Assembly (NCBI RefSeq): GCF_030490285.1
Contig: NZ_CP129884.1
Location: forward strand, 4,402,001-4,466,000
Length of the DNA stretch: 64,000 nt
Direction: 5' to 3'
DNA from: Methylomonas montana
Lineage (GTDB): Bacteria > Pseudomonadota > Gammaproteobacteria > Methylococcales > Methylomonadaceae
Shown here: one piece after another, positions 54,485 to 61,712 of the stretch
How the letters are laid out: every line of letters begins with the position of its first letter
Numbering within the stretch: position 1 is the stretch's first letter
The notes under the pieces: model-generated
Databases searched by the model: none
What the model saw: only the letters and a program-made list of their open reading frames with translations
Told to the model about the DNA's origin: nothing
Program-made: the position numbers and the translations under genes

Positions 54485-54811
54485 ATGAATCACTACCCCG
54501 AAAAAAACTGCAGCATCGACCGCCTGCTGACACATCCCAAATTGGTGGCGGCGGCGCTGGCTGGCCAGAAAACTCAGCAACGCCGCGACGGATTGTATGC
54601 CTATCCGGGCGAAATCTTTATGCTGGAACAGGTGGAGTTCGAGGTGACCGATGTGGAACGCCAACGCTTGGGCGATATTAGCGATGCGGACGCCCGCGCC
54701 GAAGGTTATCCAAGTCTGGCGATGTATAAGGATTTAATTCTGAAAATGCACAGCGGCATGGAATGGAACGAAGACGGCCTGGTTTGGGTGCACAGCTTCA
54801 AGCGTCGGTAG
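54485..54811 (+). CDS. ASCH-domain protein
   Basis: A 108-residue protein: QKTQQRRDGLYAYPGEIFML and the C-terminal LGDISDADARAEGYPSLAMYKD, which is the GDI/AxxEGY pattern of ASCH (PUA-like RNA-binding) domains. Start at 54485 is chosen over 54401 because the added leader has no family match. It converges on, and overlaps by 14 nt, the DUF2063 gene of the bufferin operon. RNA ligand or role unknown. Confidence 0.75.
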   Translation: MNHYPEKNCSIDRLLTHPKLVAAALAGQKTQQRRDGLYAYPGEIFMLEQVEFEVTDVERQRLGDISDADARAEGYPSLAMYKDLILKMHSGMEWNEDGLVWVHSFKRR

Positions 54812-55559
54812 CCGGAATAAGAATGCCTTTTTCGGCCAATTCCCGCAGGATAGTAAAGCCGTTAGTCATCAAGGCTTGCAGATCAATTTGCGGGAACTCG
54901 GCGGCCACTGCTTGCAGGCACGCTTCGCCGCTCATGGCGCCTTGATCCTGCAAGATTTGCAGCAAGCGTATGGTCAATCCGGTGGTTTTAAGAAAATGCA
55001 CCTGATCCAGCTCATCGCGATAAACGATCAGACAAGTAGGCTGTTCCGGCGCCTCCAGCGGTAAAAAACCAGGGCCTATCGCTTGTACCGGATATCGGTA
55101 CAGCAAAGGCCAAGCCAAGGGCGACAGGGCGATGCGCTGCCGCAACAGCTTTTCCAGAAAATCGCCGTCGCCTAAAGCCGGTGCCTCCTTGGCGATCGAC
55201 AAGGCCATTTCCACCCACTCGTAATGCGCCAATTCCAGCAGAAACGGATAATCGTCCGGATTGCTGCGTTCGTTTTGCAAATACGCTAAAAACTCTTCGG
55301 CAATTTCCGAGAAATACGGGGTGTCGCAGCGATGCCGAGCGTAAAAATCCTGGGTCAACTCCAGCCATTGCCCATCGCTGAGAATAGTCCGCAACACCGG
55401 GAAGTTGCTGGCAATAAAACTGTCGATATTATTAAAAAACAACTCGCGGTACATCGCCATGCGCCGCGACTCGACATCGACGGGCGGCGGATTGCTATCC
55501 GGATCGCGGATATAAGCGGCAAACCGGCTCTGCGTGGTTTTGAAATCGACGGCCATCAA
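54798..55559 (-). CDS. bufC: DUF2063 partner protein of MNIO enzyme (BufC/HvfC type)
   Basis: A 253-residue protein with the DUF2063 N-terminal part (TTQSRFAAYIRDP, RRMAMYRELFFNNIDSFIASNFPVL) and a C-terminal winged-helix-like RRE-type part (about 180-253, LKTTGLTIRLLQILQD). In studied bufferin/Hvf systems this protein binds the precursor leader and presents it to the DUF692 oxygenase. The start overlaps the bufB stop (ATGA), giving tight coupling. It is the last gene of the bufA-dedA-bufB-bufC operon. Confidence 0.85.
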   Translation of the reverse strand: MMAVDFKTTQSRFAAYIRDPDSNPPPVDVESRRMAMYRELFFNNIDSFIASNFPVLRTILSDGQWLELTQDFYARHRCDTPYFSEIAEEFLAYLQNERSNPDDYPFLLELAHYEWVEMALSIAKEAPALGDGDFLEKLLRQRIALSPLAWPLLYRYPVQAIGPGFLPLEAPEQPTCLIVYRDELDQVHFLKTTGLTIRLLQILQDQGAMSGEACLQAVAAEFPQIDLQALMTNGFTILRELAEKGILIPATDA

Positions 55560-56407
55560 GCCACCCGTTGCTGGCGGTCGGCCGAATAATGCTGCTGAAT
55601 AGCTTGGATGGTGCCCACTTCTTTTAATAATTCGGCCAGCGGCGGAATGTTGAAATCCCGTTCCAACAGGGTCGGGAACACACCGAACAATTCATAAGCC
55701 TTGCCCAATAGCGTCCAGACCGGATCGATCACCGGTGCGCCATGGGTATCGACCAGAAAATCCTCGGCTTCGACGTAGTGGCCGGCGATATGCGCATAAG
55801 CGACGCGCTCGGCAGGCATGGCCCGCAGAAAAGCTTCGGCATCGTAACCATGATTGACGCTGTTGACATAGATGTTGTTGATGTCGATCAGCACATCGCA
55901 GTCGGCTTCTGCCACCACTGTGTTGAAAAAATCGATCTCGGTCATTTCCTGGCCCGGCGCGGCATAATAGGAAATATTTTCGATAGCCATGCGCTGCTCC
56001 AGGATGTCCTGCACCCGGCGGATGCGGGCAGCGACATGTTGGGCAGCCTCTTCGGTAAACGGCATCGGCATCAGATCGTACAAATGCCCGCCGTGGCTGC
56101 AATAACTGAGATGTTCGCTGTAAAACTTGATGCCGTGTTCGTGCATGAAGGTTTTTAAATCGCGCACGAATTGCTCGTCGAGCGGATCGCTGCTGCCTAT
56201 CGATAAGGACAAGCCGTGACAAACGAAATCGAAACGTTCGGTCATCGCCCGAAACTGTTTGCCGAACTTACCGCCGATGGTCATCCAGTTTTCAGGCGCC
56301 ACTTCGTAAAAACCGACGTTGCCGGGGGGCTGTTCGACAATCTCGTTCAGGAACGAACGCCGCAAACCCAAGCCGGCACCGTGAACAAGATTGAGAACAC
56401 TGTCCAT
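55556..56407 (-). CDS. bufB: MNIO (DUF692) multinuclear non-heme iron oxygenase, BufB/HvfB/MbnB type
   Basis: A 283-residue TIM-barrel iron enzyme. Likely metal ligands by family pattern are His64 (FVCHGLS), Glu98/His99 (YSEHLSY), Glu143 (IENIS), Asp175 and Asn177 (DINNIYVN), His206/His210 (AHIAGH), Asp220/His222 (DTHG) and Glu249 (LLERD). MNIOs convert Cys in ribosomally made peptides to oxazolone/thioamide, 5-thiooxazole or related groups, which bind copper. It lies 3 nt after dedA and overlaps bufC. The precursor in the same operon has eight candidate Cys. Chemistry on this precursor is inferred. Confidence 0.9.
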   Translation of the reverse strand: MDSVLNLVHGAGLGLRRSFLNEIVEQPPGNVGFYEVAPENWMTIGGKFGKQFRAMTERFDFVCHGLSLSIGSSDPLDEQFVRDLKTFMHEHGIKFYSEHLSYCSHGGHLYDLMPMPFTEEAAQHVAARIRRVQDILEQRMAIENISYYAAPGQEMTEIDFFNTVVAEADCDVLIDINNIYVNSVNHGYDAEAFLRAMPAERVAYAHIAGHYVEAEDFLVDTHGAPVIDPVWTLLGKAYELFGVFPTLLERDFNIPPLAELLKEVGTIQAIQQHYSADRQQRVA

Positions 56408-56410
56408 GAC

Positions 56411-56983
56411 TTATTCCTCCGGCGTTTCCGGCTTATGCGTAGACCGCCAAAACAGCGCCAAACCGATGACAATCAAGACCACCAGAATATAGGTTTCGTA
56501 TTCCTTAATCTTACCCAAAAACGTTTCGGCCAGATCGCCGAACTCATACCCCAGATAAGCGACCGCTATCGCCCAAATCGCCGCACCGAGAAAGTTCAAA
56601 GCAAAAAACTTCAAGGGATGGATCTTGCTGGCACCGATCACGAACGGCGTGACGTTACGCACGCCGTAAAGGAAACGGAACCCAAGTATCACCGGTATCT
56701 GATGCTTGTGCAGCATCTCGAATACCTTGTCGGTTTTACTATGCCAGAGCGGTCGTTTCTCGAGGAAGGCGATGCCTTTCCAACGGCCCAAATAGAAAAA
56801 AGTCTGATCACCGGCAAATGTCCCGAGAAACGCAGTCACCATTACCCATTGCAATTCCAAGTAACCGCTGTGAGCCAAAAAGCCGGCGATAACCAGAATA
56901 GTTTCACCTTCCAGGTAAGTGCCAATAAAAAGCGCCAGATAGCCGTAATCGACGACGAGCTGCTGTAAAGCCTGAAAATCCAT
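56411..56983 (-). CDS. DedA-family membrane protein inside the bufferin operon
   Basis: A 190-residue protein with DedA/SNARE-associated features: FIGTYLEGETILVIAGFLAHSG (acidic Glu25/Glu27), GTFAGDQTFFYLGRWKG, GFRFLYGVRNVTPFVIGAS (conserved Arg) and about five TM segments. DedA proteins move undecaprenyl- or other phospholipids or support proton-dependent membrane functions. It sits between the precursor gene and the MNIO gene, where related operons often encode a DoxX-type membrane protein. So a membrane role in bufferin maturation or export is possible, but not shown. Confidence 0.88.
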   Translation of the reverse strand: MDFQALQQLVVDYGYLALFIGTYLEGETILVIAGFLAHSGYLELQWVMVTAFLGTFAGDQTFFYLGRWKGIAFLEKRPLWHSKTDKVFEMLHKHQIPVILGFRFLYGVRNVTPFVIGASKIHPLKFFALNFLGAAIWAIAVAYLGYEFGDLAETFLGKIKEYETYILVVLIVIGLALFWRSTHKPETPEE

Positions 56984-57014
56984 AGTTCGGTCTAATCGGG
57001 TATTGATAACAGGG

Positions 57015-57566
57015 TTAATGACCGGCGGCTTTGTCGGCGTCGACTTTGCTGCCGCAACTGCCTTCTTCGCCTTTCATCATCGCGCCACAGCTGTGTTCGC
57101 CGGCTTTTTTATCGCCACCCATCATCGCACCACAACTGCCTTCTTCGGCTTTTTTAGGCTGATCGGCATTGCCGTGTTCCATACCGCCCATTCCACCCAT
57201 CATGCCCATGCCGCAGGCACCTTCCTTGCCTTTCATCATCGCGCCGCAAGAACTTTCCATGCCTTTTTTCATTTTGCCGCCGCTCATCATGCCGCCGCAC
57301 ATGCCTTCGCCGCAGGAACCTTCGGTTTTCTTGGCGTCGGCTTTCTTGGCTTCGCCCTTCTTAACGCCATTGGCGTCCATCGCATTGGAACCGCAGGCGC
57401 CTTGGCTGATTTTGCCGTTCGAATGATTATCGGCGACTTGCATATAGCCGCTGGACAATTCGGATAGCACAAACGGATTGGTATCGGCTTGGACATTGAC
57501 AGCCATGCCGGACAAAATAGCGCTGCCCATCGCGGCGGCCAACGGAGATTTATTGAATTTTTTCAT
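57015..57566 (-). CDS. bufA: Bufferin-type (BufA2/HvfA-like) precursor peptide with eight Cys
   Basis: A 183-residue low-complexity secreted precursor. Residues 1-27 form a signal peptide, followed by DTNPFVLSELSSGYMQVADN (28-47), the conserved leader-like segment of Hvf/BufA2 proteins. Then Gly-, Lys- and Met-rich repeats carry Cys58, 85, 90, 107, 118, 145, 160 and 171. Contexts are GACG, EGSCG, EGMCG, ESSCG, EGACG, EGSCG, EHSCG and EGSCG, close to the EGKCG sites modified by MNIOs. A GAGAGGATAAG ribosome binding site precedes the ATG at 57566; the frame to 57608 is rejected. The product is probably a copper-binding buffer peptide in the periplasm. Confidence 0.85.
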   Translation of the reverse strand: MKKFNKSPLAAAMGSAILSGMAVNVQADTNPFVLSELSSGYMQVADNHSNGKISQGACGSNAMDANGVKKGEAKKADAKKTEGSCGEGMCGGMMSGGKMKKGMESSCGAMMKGKEGACGMGMMGGMGGMEHGNADQPKKAEEGSCGAMMGGDKKAGEHSCGAMMKGEEGSCGSKVDADKAAGH

Positions 57567-57623
57567 GTTGCTTATCCTCTCGTGTGTTTTTTTAATTATG
57601 AAAACCAATGCAGTGAGCTCGGC

Positions 57624-57652
57624 TTACGACCCAAGGTAGTCGCTCTAGTTCA
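57624..57652 (-). promoter_or_regulatory. Candidate ECF-sigma promoter of the bufferin operon
   Basis: Read on the minus strand: TGAACT (57652-57647), 16-bp spacer, GTCGTAA (57630-57624), ending about 58 bp before the bufA ATG. This resembles the GAACT-N16-GTC pattern of ECF-type promoters. A TGAACC-N17-GTCATTA arrangement at about the same distance precedes the SmbP-like gene. Sequence pattern only; no sigma or anti-sigma gene lies in the window. Confidence 0.4.
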
Positions 57653-57670
57653 GTCCTGATTATTGCATAT

Positions 57671-58561: not shown

Positions 58562-58897
58562 ATGAAAAAAATTACAGCTCTTACTATCAGTGCATTGCTA
58601 TTCGCCAGCGCCGGCGTATTTGCCGAAGAACATGCCGCTGCGGCACTTGAACACGCTAACCAAGCCGTTACCCATGGCAAAGCCGGCCATAGTCCGGTTT
58701 TGGTGGAACATGCGGAAGCGGCGTTAACCCATGCCAAAAAAGGCGCCGAAGTCGCCAAAGGCGAGGCTAAAACCCATCTCGATGCCGGTGTAAAATCCTT
58801 GGAAAGCGCCATTGAACATGGCAAACAAGGTCATGCCGATGTCGCCACCAAAGCCGCCGAGGAAGCGGTCGGGCACATCAAAGCAGGCAATAAATAA
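58562..58897 (+). CDS. SmbP-like small His-rich metal-binding protein
   Basis: A 111-residue secreted protein: signal peptide (about 1-21, ending VFAEE), then a helical hairpin built of two imperfect repeats rich in His, Ala, Glu and Lys (LEHANQAVTHGKAGHS, VEHAEAALTHAKKGAE, LESAIEHGKQGHADV). About ten His lie at helical spacing. It is related to SmbP of Nitrosomonas europaea, which binds several divalent metals. A GGGGG ribosome binding site precedes the ATG. The neighbouring bufferin operon makes a role in periplasmic copper or metal handling likely. Confidence 0.8.
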   Translation: MKKITALTISALLFASAGVFAEEHAAAALEHANQAVTHGKAGHSPVLVEHAEAALTHAKKGAEVAKGEAKTHLDAGVKSLESAIEHGKQGHADVATKAAEEAVGHIKAGNK

Positions 58898-59924: not shown

Positions 59925-61712
59925 TTAGAGTCTGCTCAGAAAATATAACCCATTGATTAAGCGTAGTTATTGAGGAATTTTGGTATAATTGCTGCACGAA
60001 AAACATGCCATTAGCCTCAAAAACCGTGCAGCCATGATTCGAACCACGAGCTCAAAACAACTGACGATAGCTGAATTCGACTGGCCGTTCGAGACAGCCC
60101 TGGATAAACACAATCGCTGGGTAAAACTGAGTGAGTGCATCCCGTGGGACGAACTGGCGGAATGCTATTACCAAGGGATGAGGGCGGACCGGGGCCGGCC
60201 GTTGAAAGACGCGCGGCGCGTAATCGGCGCGGTGATCATCAAGCACAAACTGTGTTTGTCAGACGTGGAAACCGTCCAGCAAATCCAGGAAAACCCGTAC
60301 CTGCAATACTTCGTCGGCTTGCCCGGCTACCAAGCGGCGGCGCCGTTTGCGCCGTCGTTATTGGTCGAAGTGCGCAAGCGCATGGGCGAAGCCGTGTTCG
60401 AAGGCTTTCACCGCGCCATCATCGAGGCGCACGAGGGGCAAAAGCCGACCCCGACCAAACTGGAAACGCCGCCGGCCGCGGCAACGCCCGCTGCGTCTGA
60501 GCCGAAGGCCGCGGCTAGCGTGACCGCGCCTGAAGCTGAGGTTCAGCCCGAGGCGGCCGAAGCGGCCTTGGATTTTGCCGATAAAGACGGTGTCCCATCG
60601 GCACCGGAGCCGGAAGCACCGGCCGCCCCGCGCGGCCAATTGATTCTGGATGCCACCGTGGTCGAACAAGCCATCCGCTTTCCCACCGATTTGAGCCTGT
60701 TGAACGAAGCGCGGGAATTAACGGAACGGATCATCGACACCCTGTGCAAGCGCCTGAAGGTCACGGACAAACCCAGGACTTATCGCCACAAAGCCCGCAG
60801 TGCGTATCTGGCCGTCGCCAAACAAAAGCGCCCCGGCCGGAAAGTGCTACGCCGAGGCATCAAGCAACAGTGGCAATATCTGCGCCGCAACCTGAGCCAC
60901 ATCGAACAACTCTTGGCGCCCATCCCTCAGGGTTCGCCGCTGCCGTTGCCGGGTTGGCTGCTGCATCGCTACTGGGTGATTCAGCATCTGTACCAGCAAC
61001 AATGGGACATGTATCGAAACCAGACCCGCCGCTGCGACCGCCGCATCGTCAGTATCAGTCAACCCTATGTGCGGCCGATGGTGCGCGGCAAGTTGGACAA
61101 GCCGGTCGAATTCGGCGCCAAACTCAGCGTCAGCCTGAGCGGCGAAGGCCTAGCTCATGTCGATCACCTGCGATGGGATGCCTTTCACGAAGGACTGGAT
61201 CTGGTCTCGCAAGTCGAAGCGTACTTGGCGCGCTACGGCCACTATCCGGAACGGGTGCTCGCCGATCCGATCTACGGCACGCGCGCCAACCGCGACTACC
61301 TGAAGCAACACGGTATCCGCTTTGCCGGCAAACCGCTCGGCCGCCCCAAACGCGAAACCGAGGCCAACCGGGAGCAACTCAAACACGACAAAGAACAGCG
61401 CCGGCAGGAATACCTGCAGCGCATCCCCATCGAAGGCAAATTCGACCAAGGTAAAAACGGCTATCGTCTCAACGACATCCGCGCCAAGCGCGCCAACACC
61501 TCGTTCGCCTGGTTCAACACCATCTTCTTGGTGATGAACCTGCTGGTCCTGCAAGGGATCTTTTTTGCCCTCGGTCAATGCCGCCTGGTCGGGTTACTGC
61601 AAATGATCGTGCGCGCCTGGAAACAAAAGATTTGGAATCTGCGCACCCATTCTAACTTGGCCGACCCGATTTGCTCGTCATTGCCACAGCTGATTTACTG
61701 AGCAGACTCTAA
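59925..61712. mobile_element. Complete insertion sequence (IS5/IS1182-like), TTAA-flanked
   Basis: Perfect terminal inverted repeats TTAGAGTCTGCTCAG (59925-59939) and CTGAGCAGACTCTAA (61698-61712) enclose one transposase gene. TTAA flanks both ends (59921-59924, 61713-61716), fitting a 4-bp palindromic target duplication, though TTAA itself could extend the repeats to 19 bp. The element is about 1.79 kb and appears intact. It separates thyA from the nfeD gene. Confidence 0.9.
60034..61701 (+). CDS. DDE transposase (DUF772/IS1182-like)
   Basis: A 555-residue transposase. Residues about 1-140 form the N-terminal DNA-binding part (DUF772-type, VIIKHKLCLSDVETVQQI and NPYLQYFVGL). Residues about 150-215 form an Ala/Pro/Glu-rich linker. 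The DDE core follows with first Asp in LILDATVVEQ, PTDLSLLNEARE, Asp in VLADPIYGTRANRDYL, and the C-terminal IPIEGKFDQGKNGYRLNDIRAK with the Glu. The start at 60034 is chosen as the first ATG; a TTG at 59989 is possible. The reading frame ends inside the right inverted repeat. Confidence 0.88.
   Translation: MIRTTSSKQLTIAEFDWPFETALDKHNRWVKLSECIPWDELAECYYQGMRADRGRPLKDARRVIGAVIIKHKLCLSDVETVQQIQENPYLQYFVGLPGYQAAAPFAPSLLVEVRKRMGEAVFEGFHRAIIEAHEGQKPTPTKLETPPAAATPAASEPKAAASVTAPEAEVQPEAAEAALDFADKDGVPSAPEPEAPAAPRGQLILDATVVEQAIRFPTDLSLLNEARELTERIIDTLCKRLKVTDKPRTYRHKARSAYLAVAKQKRPGRKVLRRGIKQQWQYLRRNLSHIEQLLAPIPQGSPLPLPGWLLHRYWVIQHLYQQQWDMYRNQTRRCDRRIVSISQPYVRPMVRGKLDKPVEFGAKLSVSLSGEGLAHVDHLRWDAFHEGLDLVSQVEAYLARYGHYPERVLADPIYGTRANRDYLKQHGIRFAGKPLGRPKRETEANREQLKHDKEQRRQEYLQRIPIEGKFDQGKNGYRLNDIRAKRANTSFAWFNTIFLVMNLLVLQGIFFALGQCRLVGLLQMIVRAWKQKIWNLRTHSNLADPICSSLPQLIY

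Follow-up and report, generated by a model that had tools for sequence, protein, structure and literature searches.

We analysed a 64,000-nucleotide stretch of the Methylomonas montana genome (assembly GCF_030490285.1, contig NZ_CP129884.1, positions 4,402,001 to 4,466,000; G000:C1:4402001-4466000 of a 4.63-Mb genome in one contig), referred to here as the window; G and L numbers are our own labels for genomes and loci. The window carries four minus-strand genes for a secreted-type, cysteine-rich precursor, a DedA membrane protein, an MNIO and its HvfC partner, which probably make a ribosomally synthesized and post-translationally modified peptide (RiPP) of the HvfA/oxazolin type. The minus-strand order is nth, a 104-bp gap, the precursor gene, dedA, the MNIO gene and hvfC, and the following features were placed:

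58306-57671, minus strand: nth (endonuclease III)
57567..57670, minus strand: presumed promoter region, 104 bp, between nth and the precursor gene
57015..57566, minus strand: hvfA-like precursor, 183 amino acids, with 8 Cys and with 18 Met in the presumed mature part of 156 residues
57486..57566, minus strand: probable Sec signal peptide, residues 1-27, ending ...VQA|DTNPF; cleavage placed by eye; conserved in the 31-precursor alignment
57441..57485, minus strand: conserved leader DTNPFVLSELSSGYM, common to HvfA-type precursors of other Gammaproteobacteria
57210..57299, minus strand: core module CGGMMSGGKMKKGMESSCGAMMKGKEGACG, residues 90-119, with three Cys and fixed Met positions
56411..56983, minus strand: dedA, a DedA/VTT membrane protein of 190 amino acids (PF09335, E=4.4e-20)
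55556..56407, minus strand: MNIO of the HvfB family, 283 amino acids
54798..55556, minus strand: HvfC/PME1 partner (DUF2063 plus NGO1945_C), matched by Pfam and NF050145

The genes are tightly packed, with 31 bp between precursor and dedA, 3 bp between dedA and the MNIO gene and an overlap of one base between the MNIO gene and hvfC. Gene positions, short gaps and profile matches bear out the packed four-gene operon that a sequence-only reading of this DNA had proposed; of its span of 54798..57608 the genes stand as placed, but two starts do not. Position 57608 is merely the first TTG of the precursor open frame; the precursor starts at the ATG at 57566, directly 3′ of a purine-rich stretch conserved in most of 15 aligned upstream regions. 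For hvfC, the ATG at 55556, in a TGATG overlap with the MNIO stop, is a more likely start than the TTG at 55559. Besides the purine-rich stretch, a stretch at the end of nth is conserved in most of the Methylomonas among these 15 sequences, and a sigma-70 scan of the 104-bp gap returned no sigma-70-like site. Across 110 loci, many of them short, gene calls placed an nth-like gene in 59 and hvfC in 101, and tblastn found hvfC in all 80 Methylococcales loci compared (L002-L081). The genomic surroundings of the operon are thus old.

The two enzyme components were assigned by profile matches. The MNIO matched PF05114 (E=1.3e-107) and the HvfB model NF003818 (437 bits, cut-off 360), remained below the cut-offs of the ApyH and ChrH models, and is 92% identical to the MNIOs of M. 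methanica NCIMB 11130 and M. fluvii. Its partner matched DUF2063 (E=2.1e-26), NGO1945_C (E=8.2e-28), HvfC NF050145 (311 bits, cut-off 142) and, by sequence, PDB entry 3dee (E=4.7e-12). From the iron ligands and catalytic Asp listed for VcMbnB (PMC8888699) we mapped the MNIO ligands H99, E143, D175, N178, H206, D220, H222 and E249 and the base D251; H64 was assigned by alignment to 3bww. All ten positions are invariant in 82/82 Methylococcales and 27/27 control MNIOs, so the iron-ligand check that the sequence-only reading had set for itself left the MNIO assignment unrefuted. By motif, N178, D220 and H222 are the counterparts of HvfB residues whose loss kills activity (PMC13419390), and R16, R17 and F252 those of Arg15, Arg16 and Phe250, through which FonB reads its substrate (PMC12668002); the latter three are kept in 82/82 Methylococcales MNIOs. 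An AlphaFold model of the MNIO (predicted local distance difference test, pLDDT, 81; predicted template modelling score, pTM, 0.83) best matched 3bww, TglH and MbnB, with 3bww the best match in the PDB.

The precursor is secreted-type and Cys-rich, with sites unlike EGKCG, as the sequence-only reading had described it. A signal-peptide-like N-terminus is common to the aligned 31 precursors. The eight Cys sites read QGACG, EGSCG, EGMCG, ESSCG, EGACG, EGSCG, EHSCG and EGSCG, so that every Cys is followed by Gly and preceded by Ala, Ser or Met; their spacing is irregular (27, 5, 17, 11, 27, 15 and 11), and Met makes up 11.5% of the mature part. No Pfam family matched the precursor at E<=0.01. The cut-off of 95 bits of the HvfA model NF050188 was reached in 0/274 Gammaproteobacteria genomes, 72 of which gave a match at E<=0.001; the equivalog model is very narrow, so automatic annotation will miss most such precursors. 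We claim no fold for the precursor because its AlphaFold model, built from the 31-row alignment, was poor (pLDDT 47, pTM 0.17; best-predicted residues 91-110).

For comparison, we took the best 80 of 490 loci matched by the window MNIO as the Methylococcales set, 81 with the window added, and called as precursor any open frame within 2.5 kb upstream of the MNIO with at least 3 CG and at least 4 Cys. A first control set, the 30 best HvfA-profile matches, was biased to EGKCG (207/248 Cys), and we instead used the fairer set of 25 precursors beside the 27 best-matching class MNIOs outside Methylococcales. The 71 distinct Methylococcales precursors, from 70/81 loci, hold 611 Cys, of which 216 are preceded by Ala, 172 by Ser and 115 by Lys, with EGKCG at 71/611, Met at C+4 at 367/611 and Met at 11.9% of residues. 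In the 25 controls, with 200 Cys, Lys precedes 190, EGKCG occurs at 176, Met at C+4 at 33, and Met accounts for 7.1% of residues.

Collecting the Methylococcales neighbours and aligning their precursors, as the sequence-only reading had proposed, brought out in the 31-row alignment a block with invariant Cys, Gly, Lys, Glu and several Met. Expressed as the pattern CG.MM.{2,3}KM..G.E..CG.MM...[ED]G.CG, this module matched 65/70 Methylococcales loci and 0/25 controls; the misses were L042, L043 and L045 (Methylotuvimicrobium, Methylomicrobium and a relative), L076 and L081. The pattern was likewise absent from 30 class HvfA loci, 28 class MNIO loci and 30 loci of the orphan precursor described below. 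To guard against circularity, we repeated the search with every Met position of the pattern left free. In the resulting 75 module copies, from 72 related precursor rows of which 71 are distinct, Met occupies C+3, C+4, the position after Lys, C'+3 and C'+4 in 75/75 copies and the position after Gly in 66/75, while several in-between positions vary. The five invariant Met positions are as constant as the Cys, and their conservation points to selection on the thioethers.

The MNIO differs between the same two groups. Position 73 is Pro in 26/27 controls and 3/82 Methylococcales; position 74 is Ala or Ser in 25/27 controls and Asp in 82/82 Methylococcales; position 105 is Asp in 27/27 controls and 2/82 Methylococcales, where it is mostly Lys or His. 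These three were chosen from about 25 discriminating columns for their place in the sequence, and their putative closeness to the substrate is judged solely from their location soon after H64 and H99. L242, from the same order but a different family, retains P73, A74 and D105, and each of its 3 Cys seen follows a Lys. Against position 105 by itself stand L008 and L014, with Asp105 yet no Lys, and also L080 and L030, in which up to two thirds of the sites carry Lys although Asp105 is absent. Because the comparison sets one clade against another, it amounts to at most one evolutionary event plus the intermediate L242, and the co-variation of positions 73, 74 and 105 with Lys before Cys is suggestive only. 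It offers a natural co-variation for studying MNIO specificity.

The sequence-only reading had expected oxazolone- or thioamide-type products, an assignment now outdated, since the Cys of HvfA-type peptides has been reassigned to 5-thiooxazole (PMC12668002, PMC13419390); all characterised cases that combine an MNIO with PME1 are reported to install 5-thiooxazole and generally bind copper (PMC12668002). FonB is reported to tolerate Ala, Arg and Thr in place of Lys before Cys and to want a small residue after it, Pro not being tolerated; it is severely impaired by Phe or Glu preceding Cys (PMC12668002). Because Ala was included in the FonB test, the Ala-preceded sites of the window are covered. 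For the presumed mature form we computed a monoisotopic mass of 15526.68 unmodified and 15494.43 with 8 modified Cys; the computed tryptic masses shift from 1130.42 to 1126.39 for GMESSCGAMMK and from 1677.59 to 1669.53 for TEGSCGEGMCGGMMSGGK.

Taken together, the operon probably makes a periplasmic, Cu(I)-binding RiPP of the HvfA/oxazolin ("captophorin") type, whose precursor appears to be of an unusual branch; modification, export, Cu(I) binding and buffering are inferred. We hold the pathway type with high confidence, copper as the metal with moderate confidence and the exact physiological role with low confidence. The precursor would be translated with its Sec signal peptide, and HvfC would bind the conserved N-terminal part and present the precursor to the MNIO, whose mixed-valent iron centre would carry out a four-electron oxidation of each Cys to 5-thiooxazole (-4.03 Da each). 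The modified peptide would then be exported and bind Cu(I). With Lys largely lost from the position before Cys and Met standing at fixed distances, the Cu(I) ligands in the Methylococcales branch are probably both thiooxazole and Met thioether. The result would be a high-capacity Cu(I) buffer for cells whose main enzyme, particulate methane monooxygenase (pMMO), needs membrane copper, with DedA as a membrane component added in Methylomonas, any role of which is inferred.

Several observations weigh against this reading. EGKCG is found at 0/8 window Cys and Lys before 0/8, although EGxCG occurs at 5/8, and the match of the precursor to NF050188 is weak (20.1 bits, E=7e-4, cut-off 95). Ser and Met before Cys are not among the FonB variants named in the parts of PMC12668002 covered here, which also reports that, with several variant motifs, FonB modified one of two sites. 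By our calling rules, 11/81 loci, the window being counted in the set, gave no precursor, two of them cut by contig ends. No metal regulator was identified, and a comparison of 15 sequences upstream of the precursor revealed no operator. Finally, dedA adjoins the MNIO gene in just 10 of the best 80 Methylococcales loci.

That last figure bears on whether DedA is a passenger, its place in the operon being irrelevant to the peptide. The protein itself is a regular family member: it matches VTT (E=4.4e-20) and has both DedA motifs, FYLGR at 63-67 and GASKIHPLKF at 117-126, as reported for the family, with the two about 50 residues apart (PMC8679861). Among 37 Methylomonas genomes, 33 have a DedA match at E<=1e-10 and 36 an MNIO; in these 36, dedA adjoins the MNIO gene in 26, lies elsewhere in 7 and is absent in 3. 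In the six of the seven "elsewhere" cases whose surroundings were covered (the L163-L168 clade), the 11-14 kb around dedA hold ion-transport genes and no precursor; the neighbours are CNNM and TrkH by Pfam where scanned and CitMHS/NhaD-like in L163, the rest having been judged by eye. In a tree of 32 Methylomonas MNIOs with 4 outgroups, 8 rows with dedA elsewhere or missing fall in one clade (99/95). Adjacency occurs in both branches around the outgroup and so probably dates from early in the genus, with one or two later losses, although the tree has several weak forks. In the wider family, 24/151 genomes have a DedA match at E<=1e-25, 12 of them Methylomonas at >=79% identity and 12 others at 37-43%.

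DoxX, a frequent member of hvf operons, is not encoded between nth and the end of hvfC. A DoxX of the hvf type stands alone at G000:C1:3354588-3355262 (L271:1213-1887, minus strand), and 27/37 Methylomonas genomes have relatives of it. With this DoxX as the tblastn query, a DoxX near the MNIO was found in at least 17/28 class loci, which are short, and in 2/80 Methylococcales loci; those of the 17 are about 42-66% identical to it. The clade thus seems to have moved doxX out of the operon, and the genus to have put dedA in. The idea that DedA simply replaces DoxX is weakened, because the genome retains a doxX outside the operon. This result slightly raised our estimate that DedA is a passenger, which now stands just short of even. 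The rarity of dedA at Methylococcales loci, the clade with dedA beside ion-transport genes and the related DoxX in the source genome and 27/37 Methylomonas genomes favour a passenger; the 3-bp spacing to the MNIO gene and the adjacency in 26/36 genomes, which span the two main branches of the genus, count against one. For one DedA protein, lowered accumulation of indium has been reported (PMC8679861), which makes a link between DedA and metal possible without demonstrating it. No published MNIO cluster with DedA turned up in the main texts covered: "DedA" and "VTT" are absent from that of PMC12452194, and "DedA" from those of PMC12668002 and PMC12538549. We consider DedA a partner worth testing in MNIO clusters.

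The genome encodes a second HvfA-like precursor, an orphan, at G000:C1:3424724-3425062 (plus strand; L204:6725-7063), with 113 amino acids and 4 Cys, two of them after Lys. Its match to the HvfA model (G000:C1:3424781-3425053) scored 34.7 bits compared with 24.6 for the operon precursor in the same search. It is flanked by a deformylase gene and iron-sulfur (Fe-S) genes (iscA-like, iscS-like, Rrf2); across 30 orphan loci, the deformylase gene is kept in 29 and iscA- and iscS-like genes stand beside the orphan in 25. Relatives with at least 65% identity occur in 35/37 Methylomonas genomes (missing in G166 and G170, with stop codons in G154 and G173), and none adjoins an MNIO match among the Methylomonas genomes compared. 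Because 13 of the 15 Methylomonas genomes with a single MNIO match carry the orphan, one MNIO probably serves two precursors; orphan MNIO precursors are already known (PMC12452194). In G079, G155, G156, G158 and G161, the orphan doxX and the orphan precursor are about 12-20 kb apart. Other Methylomonas genomes, among them G094, G135, G151 and G165, encode further MNIOs with about 55-58% and 33-40% identity to that of the window, some directly preceded by an HvfA-like precursor (G165:C1:2852601-2852906, MNIO at 2852964-2853767).

Counting any member of PF05114, 145/151 genomes of the taxonomic family have an MNIO. The source genome encodes a pMMO subunit (PF02461, E=3.6e-127) and a single MNIO; because this is of the HvfB type, the genome has no MbnB. 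The wide occurrence of MNIOs and the pMMO subunit fit our preferred reading. Together with the single MNIO, they also speak for a less likely alternative, in which the peptide serves copper supply rather than detoxification, as a periplasmic store or chaperone that loads pMMO or membranes, analogous to methanobactin or Csp proteins; an ordered arrangement of Met and Cys would be suited to exchangeable Cu(I). Neither an uptake receptor nor a pmo gene lies in the operon itself, related loci not having been searched for transporters, and such pathways are reported to be frequently induced by excess metal (PMC12668002).

To our knowledge, how gammaproteobacterial methanotrophs without methanobactin store copper and move it to pMMO is unsettled. 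Recurring throughout Methylococcales, a copper peptide that is probably modified offers a concrete, testable candidate for this copper handling, and it predicts that Cu(I) sites of MNIO products need not depend on thiooxazole alone. In its boldest form, which we regard as improbable, the proposal would be that type I methanotrophs have their own class of thiooxazole/Met mixed-ligand Cu(I) proteins that, through an ordered and conserved binding module, store copper for pMMO or pass it on, made by a single MNIO that co-evolved with the new sites and acts on both the operon precursor and the one next to the Fe-S genes.

Partial modification would leave the Met- and Ser-preceded Cys as free thiols and yield a hybrid of thiooxazoles, thiols and thioethers. 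The sites are heterogeneous in sequence and spacing, and FonB turnover is partial on several variant motifs (PMC12668002), but MNIO positions 73, 74 and 105 differ in the very clade whose substrate has changed, as expected if it handles the new sites, and we judge this outcome rather unlikely. Against the 5-thiooxazole of our preferred reading, one may set a clade-specific MNIO that installs something else, given that positions 73, 74 and 105, in loops that follow two iron ligands, carry fixed changes. In 82/82 MNIOs, however, neither the ligands nor the base nor the FonB specificity residues have changed, so that new chemistry is not indicated and this alternative appears very improbable; a new modification or metal, as suggested in the sequence-only reading, finds no support, as the FonB-type Arg-Arg and Asp-Phe contacts are unchanged and FonB accepts Ala, Arg or Thr for Lys. 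Unselected drift in a low-complexity protein, for which repeat-like composition and frequent length change might speak, is very unlikely in view of the five invariant Met among variable neighbours.

Further observations concern the surroundings of the operon. An SMBP gene (small metal-binding protein, PF16785, E=8e-38) lies at 58562-58897 of the window (plus strand), beyond nth; SMBP also lies about 2.0-2.5 kb before the MNIO in L003, L004, L005, L008 and L064, and L071 has one distant match elsewhere. In 31/110 loci, the minus strand carries a recurring lipoprotein-like gene with no Pfam match, about 1.6-2.4 kb past the start of the MNIO; that of L012 encodes 154 amino acids with HNPFDHSHDG and four Cys past the presumed lipobox. 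A transposase gene (570 amino acids; DDE_Tnp_1_2, DUF772) at 59989-61701 of the window (plus strand) adjoins thyA. L048, L055, L060, L065, L068-L070, L078 and L079, mostly Methyloprofundus and mussel symbionts, have MNIO and HvfC and, by our calling rules, no precursor within 2.5 kb upstream; their precursor may sit elsewhere or differ.

In the open PMC literature on MNIOs or on copper in methanotrophs, no paper dealt with this operon by its title or the start of its abstract. The Methyloprofundus relative P0116 is already labelled a copper-binding HvfA-type RiPP in NCBI and UniRef, so the family link is not new. Neither the Met module nor the lost Lys nor the association with DedA is mentioned in the parts of the related MNIO papers covered here; the fixed Met, the clade-wide conservation and the orphan precursor also go beyond the sequence-only reading.

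Among known systems, methanobactin (MbnABC) shares with the operon the MNIO superfamily, the same iron ligands and the theme of copper in methanotrophs, but the window has a large secreted precursor and an HvfC/PME1 partner, and we rejected this identity (MbnB TIGR04159, 50 bits, cut-off 325). The bufferins Buf1 (DUF2282) and Buf2 (6/12-Cys) are likewise secreted MNIO substrates, theirs being linked to copper stress (PMC12452194). Of the bufferin label given by the sequence-only reading, the MNIO RiPP operon with DUF2063 partner and DedA stands; a strict bufferin is rejected in favour of the HvfA/oxazolin type, as the precursor is not DUF2282 and the match to BufB NF050167 (277 bits) is under the cut-off of 310. 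Bulbicupramide (mmrABC, Microbulbifer) resembles the operon in its genus-wide MNIO plus DUF2063 and its Cys-rich precursor, each Cys of which loses 4 H in a copper-binding product (PMC12538549); it differs in its EGKCG units and organism group, and DedA is unmentioned in the main text of that paper. The window DedA is like the DedA/VTT family in its VTT domain and both motifs.

The closest systems are oxazolin/HvfABCD (Haemophilus) and the fontiphorin FonABC (“captophorins”, “Buf_EGKCG”), with which the operon shares the NPF..SGYM-type leader behind a signal-peptide-like start, the HvfB-family MNIO, the HvfC/PME1 partner and Cys-Gly sites mostly with Glu at -3. EGKCG repeats of 17 residues have been modelled as a beta-helix (PMC12452194), whereas no fold is assigned to the window precursor. 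Unlike oxazolin and other hvf operons, in which DoxX is frequent but not universal, the window operon has dedA and no doxX; and unlike oxazolin and FonABC, its precursor lacks Lys before Cys, spaces its Cys irregularly and is rich in Met, with a fixed Met module.

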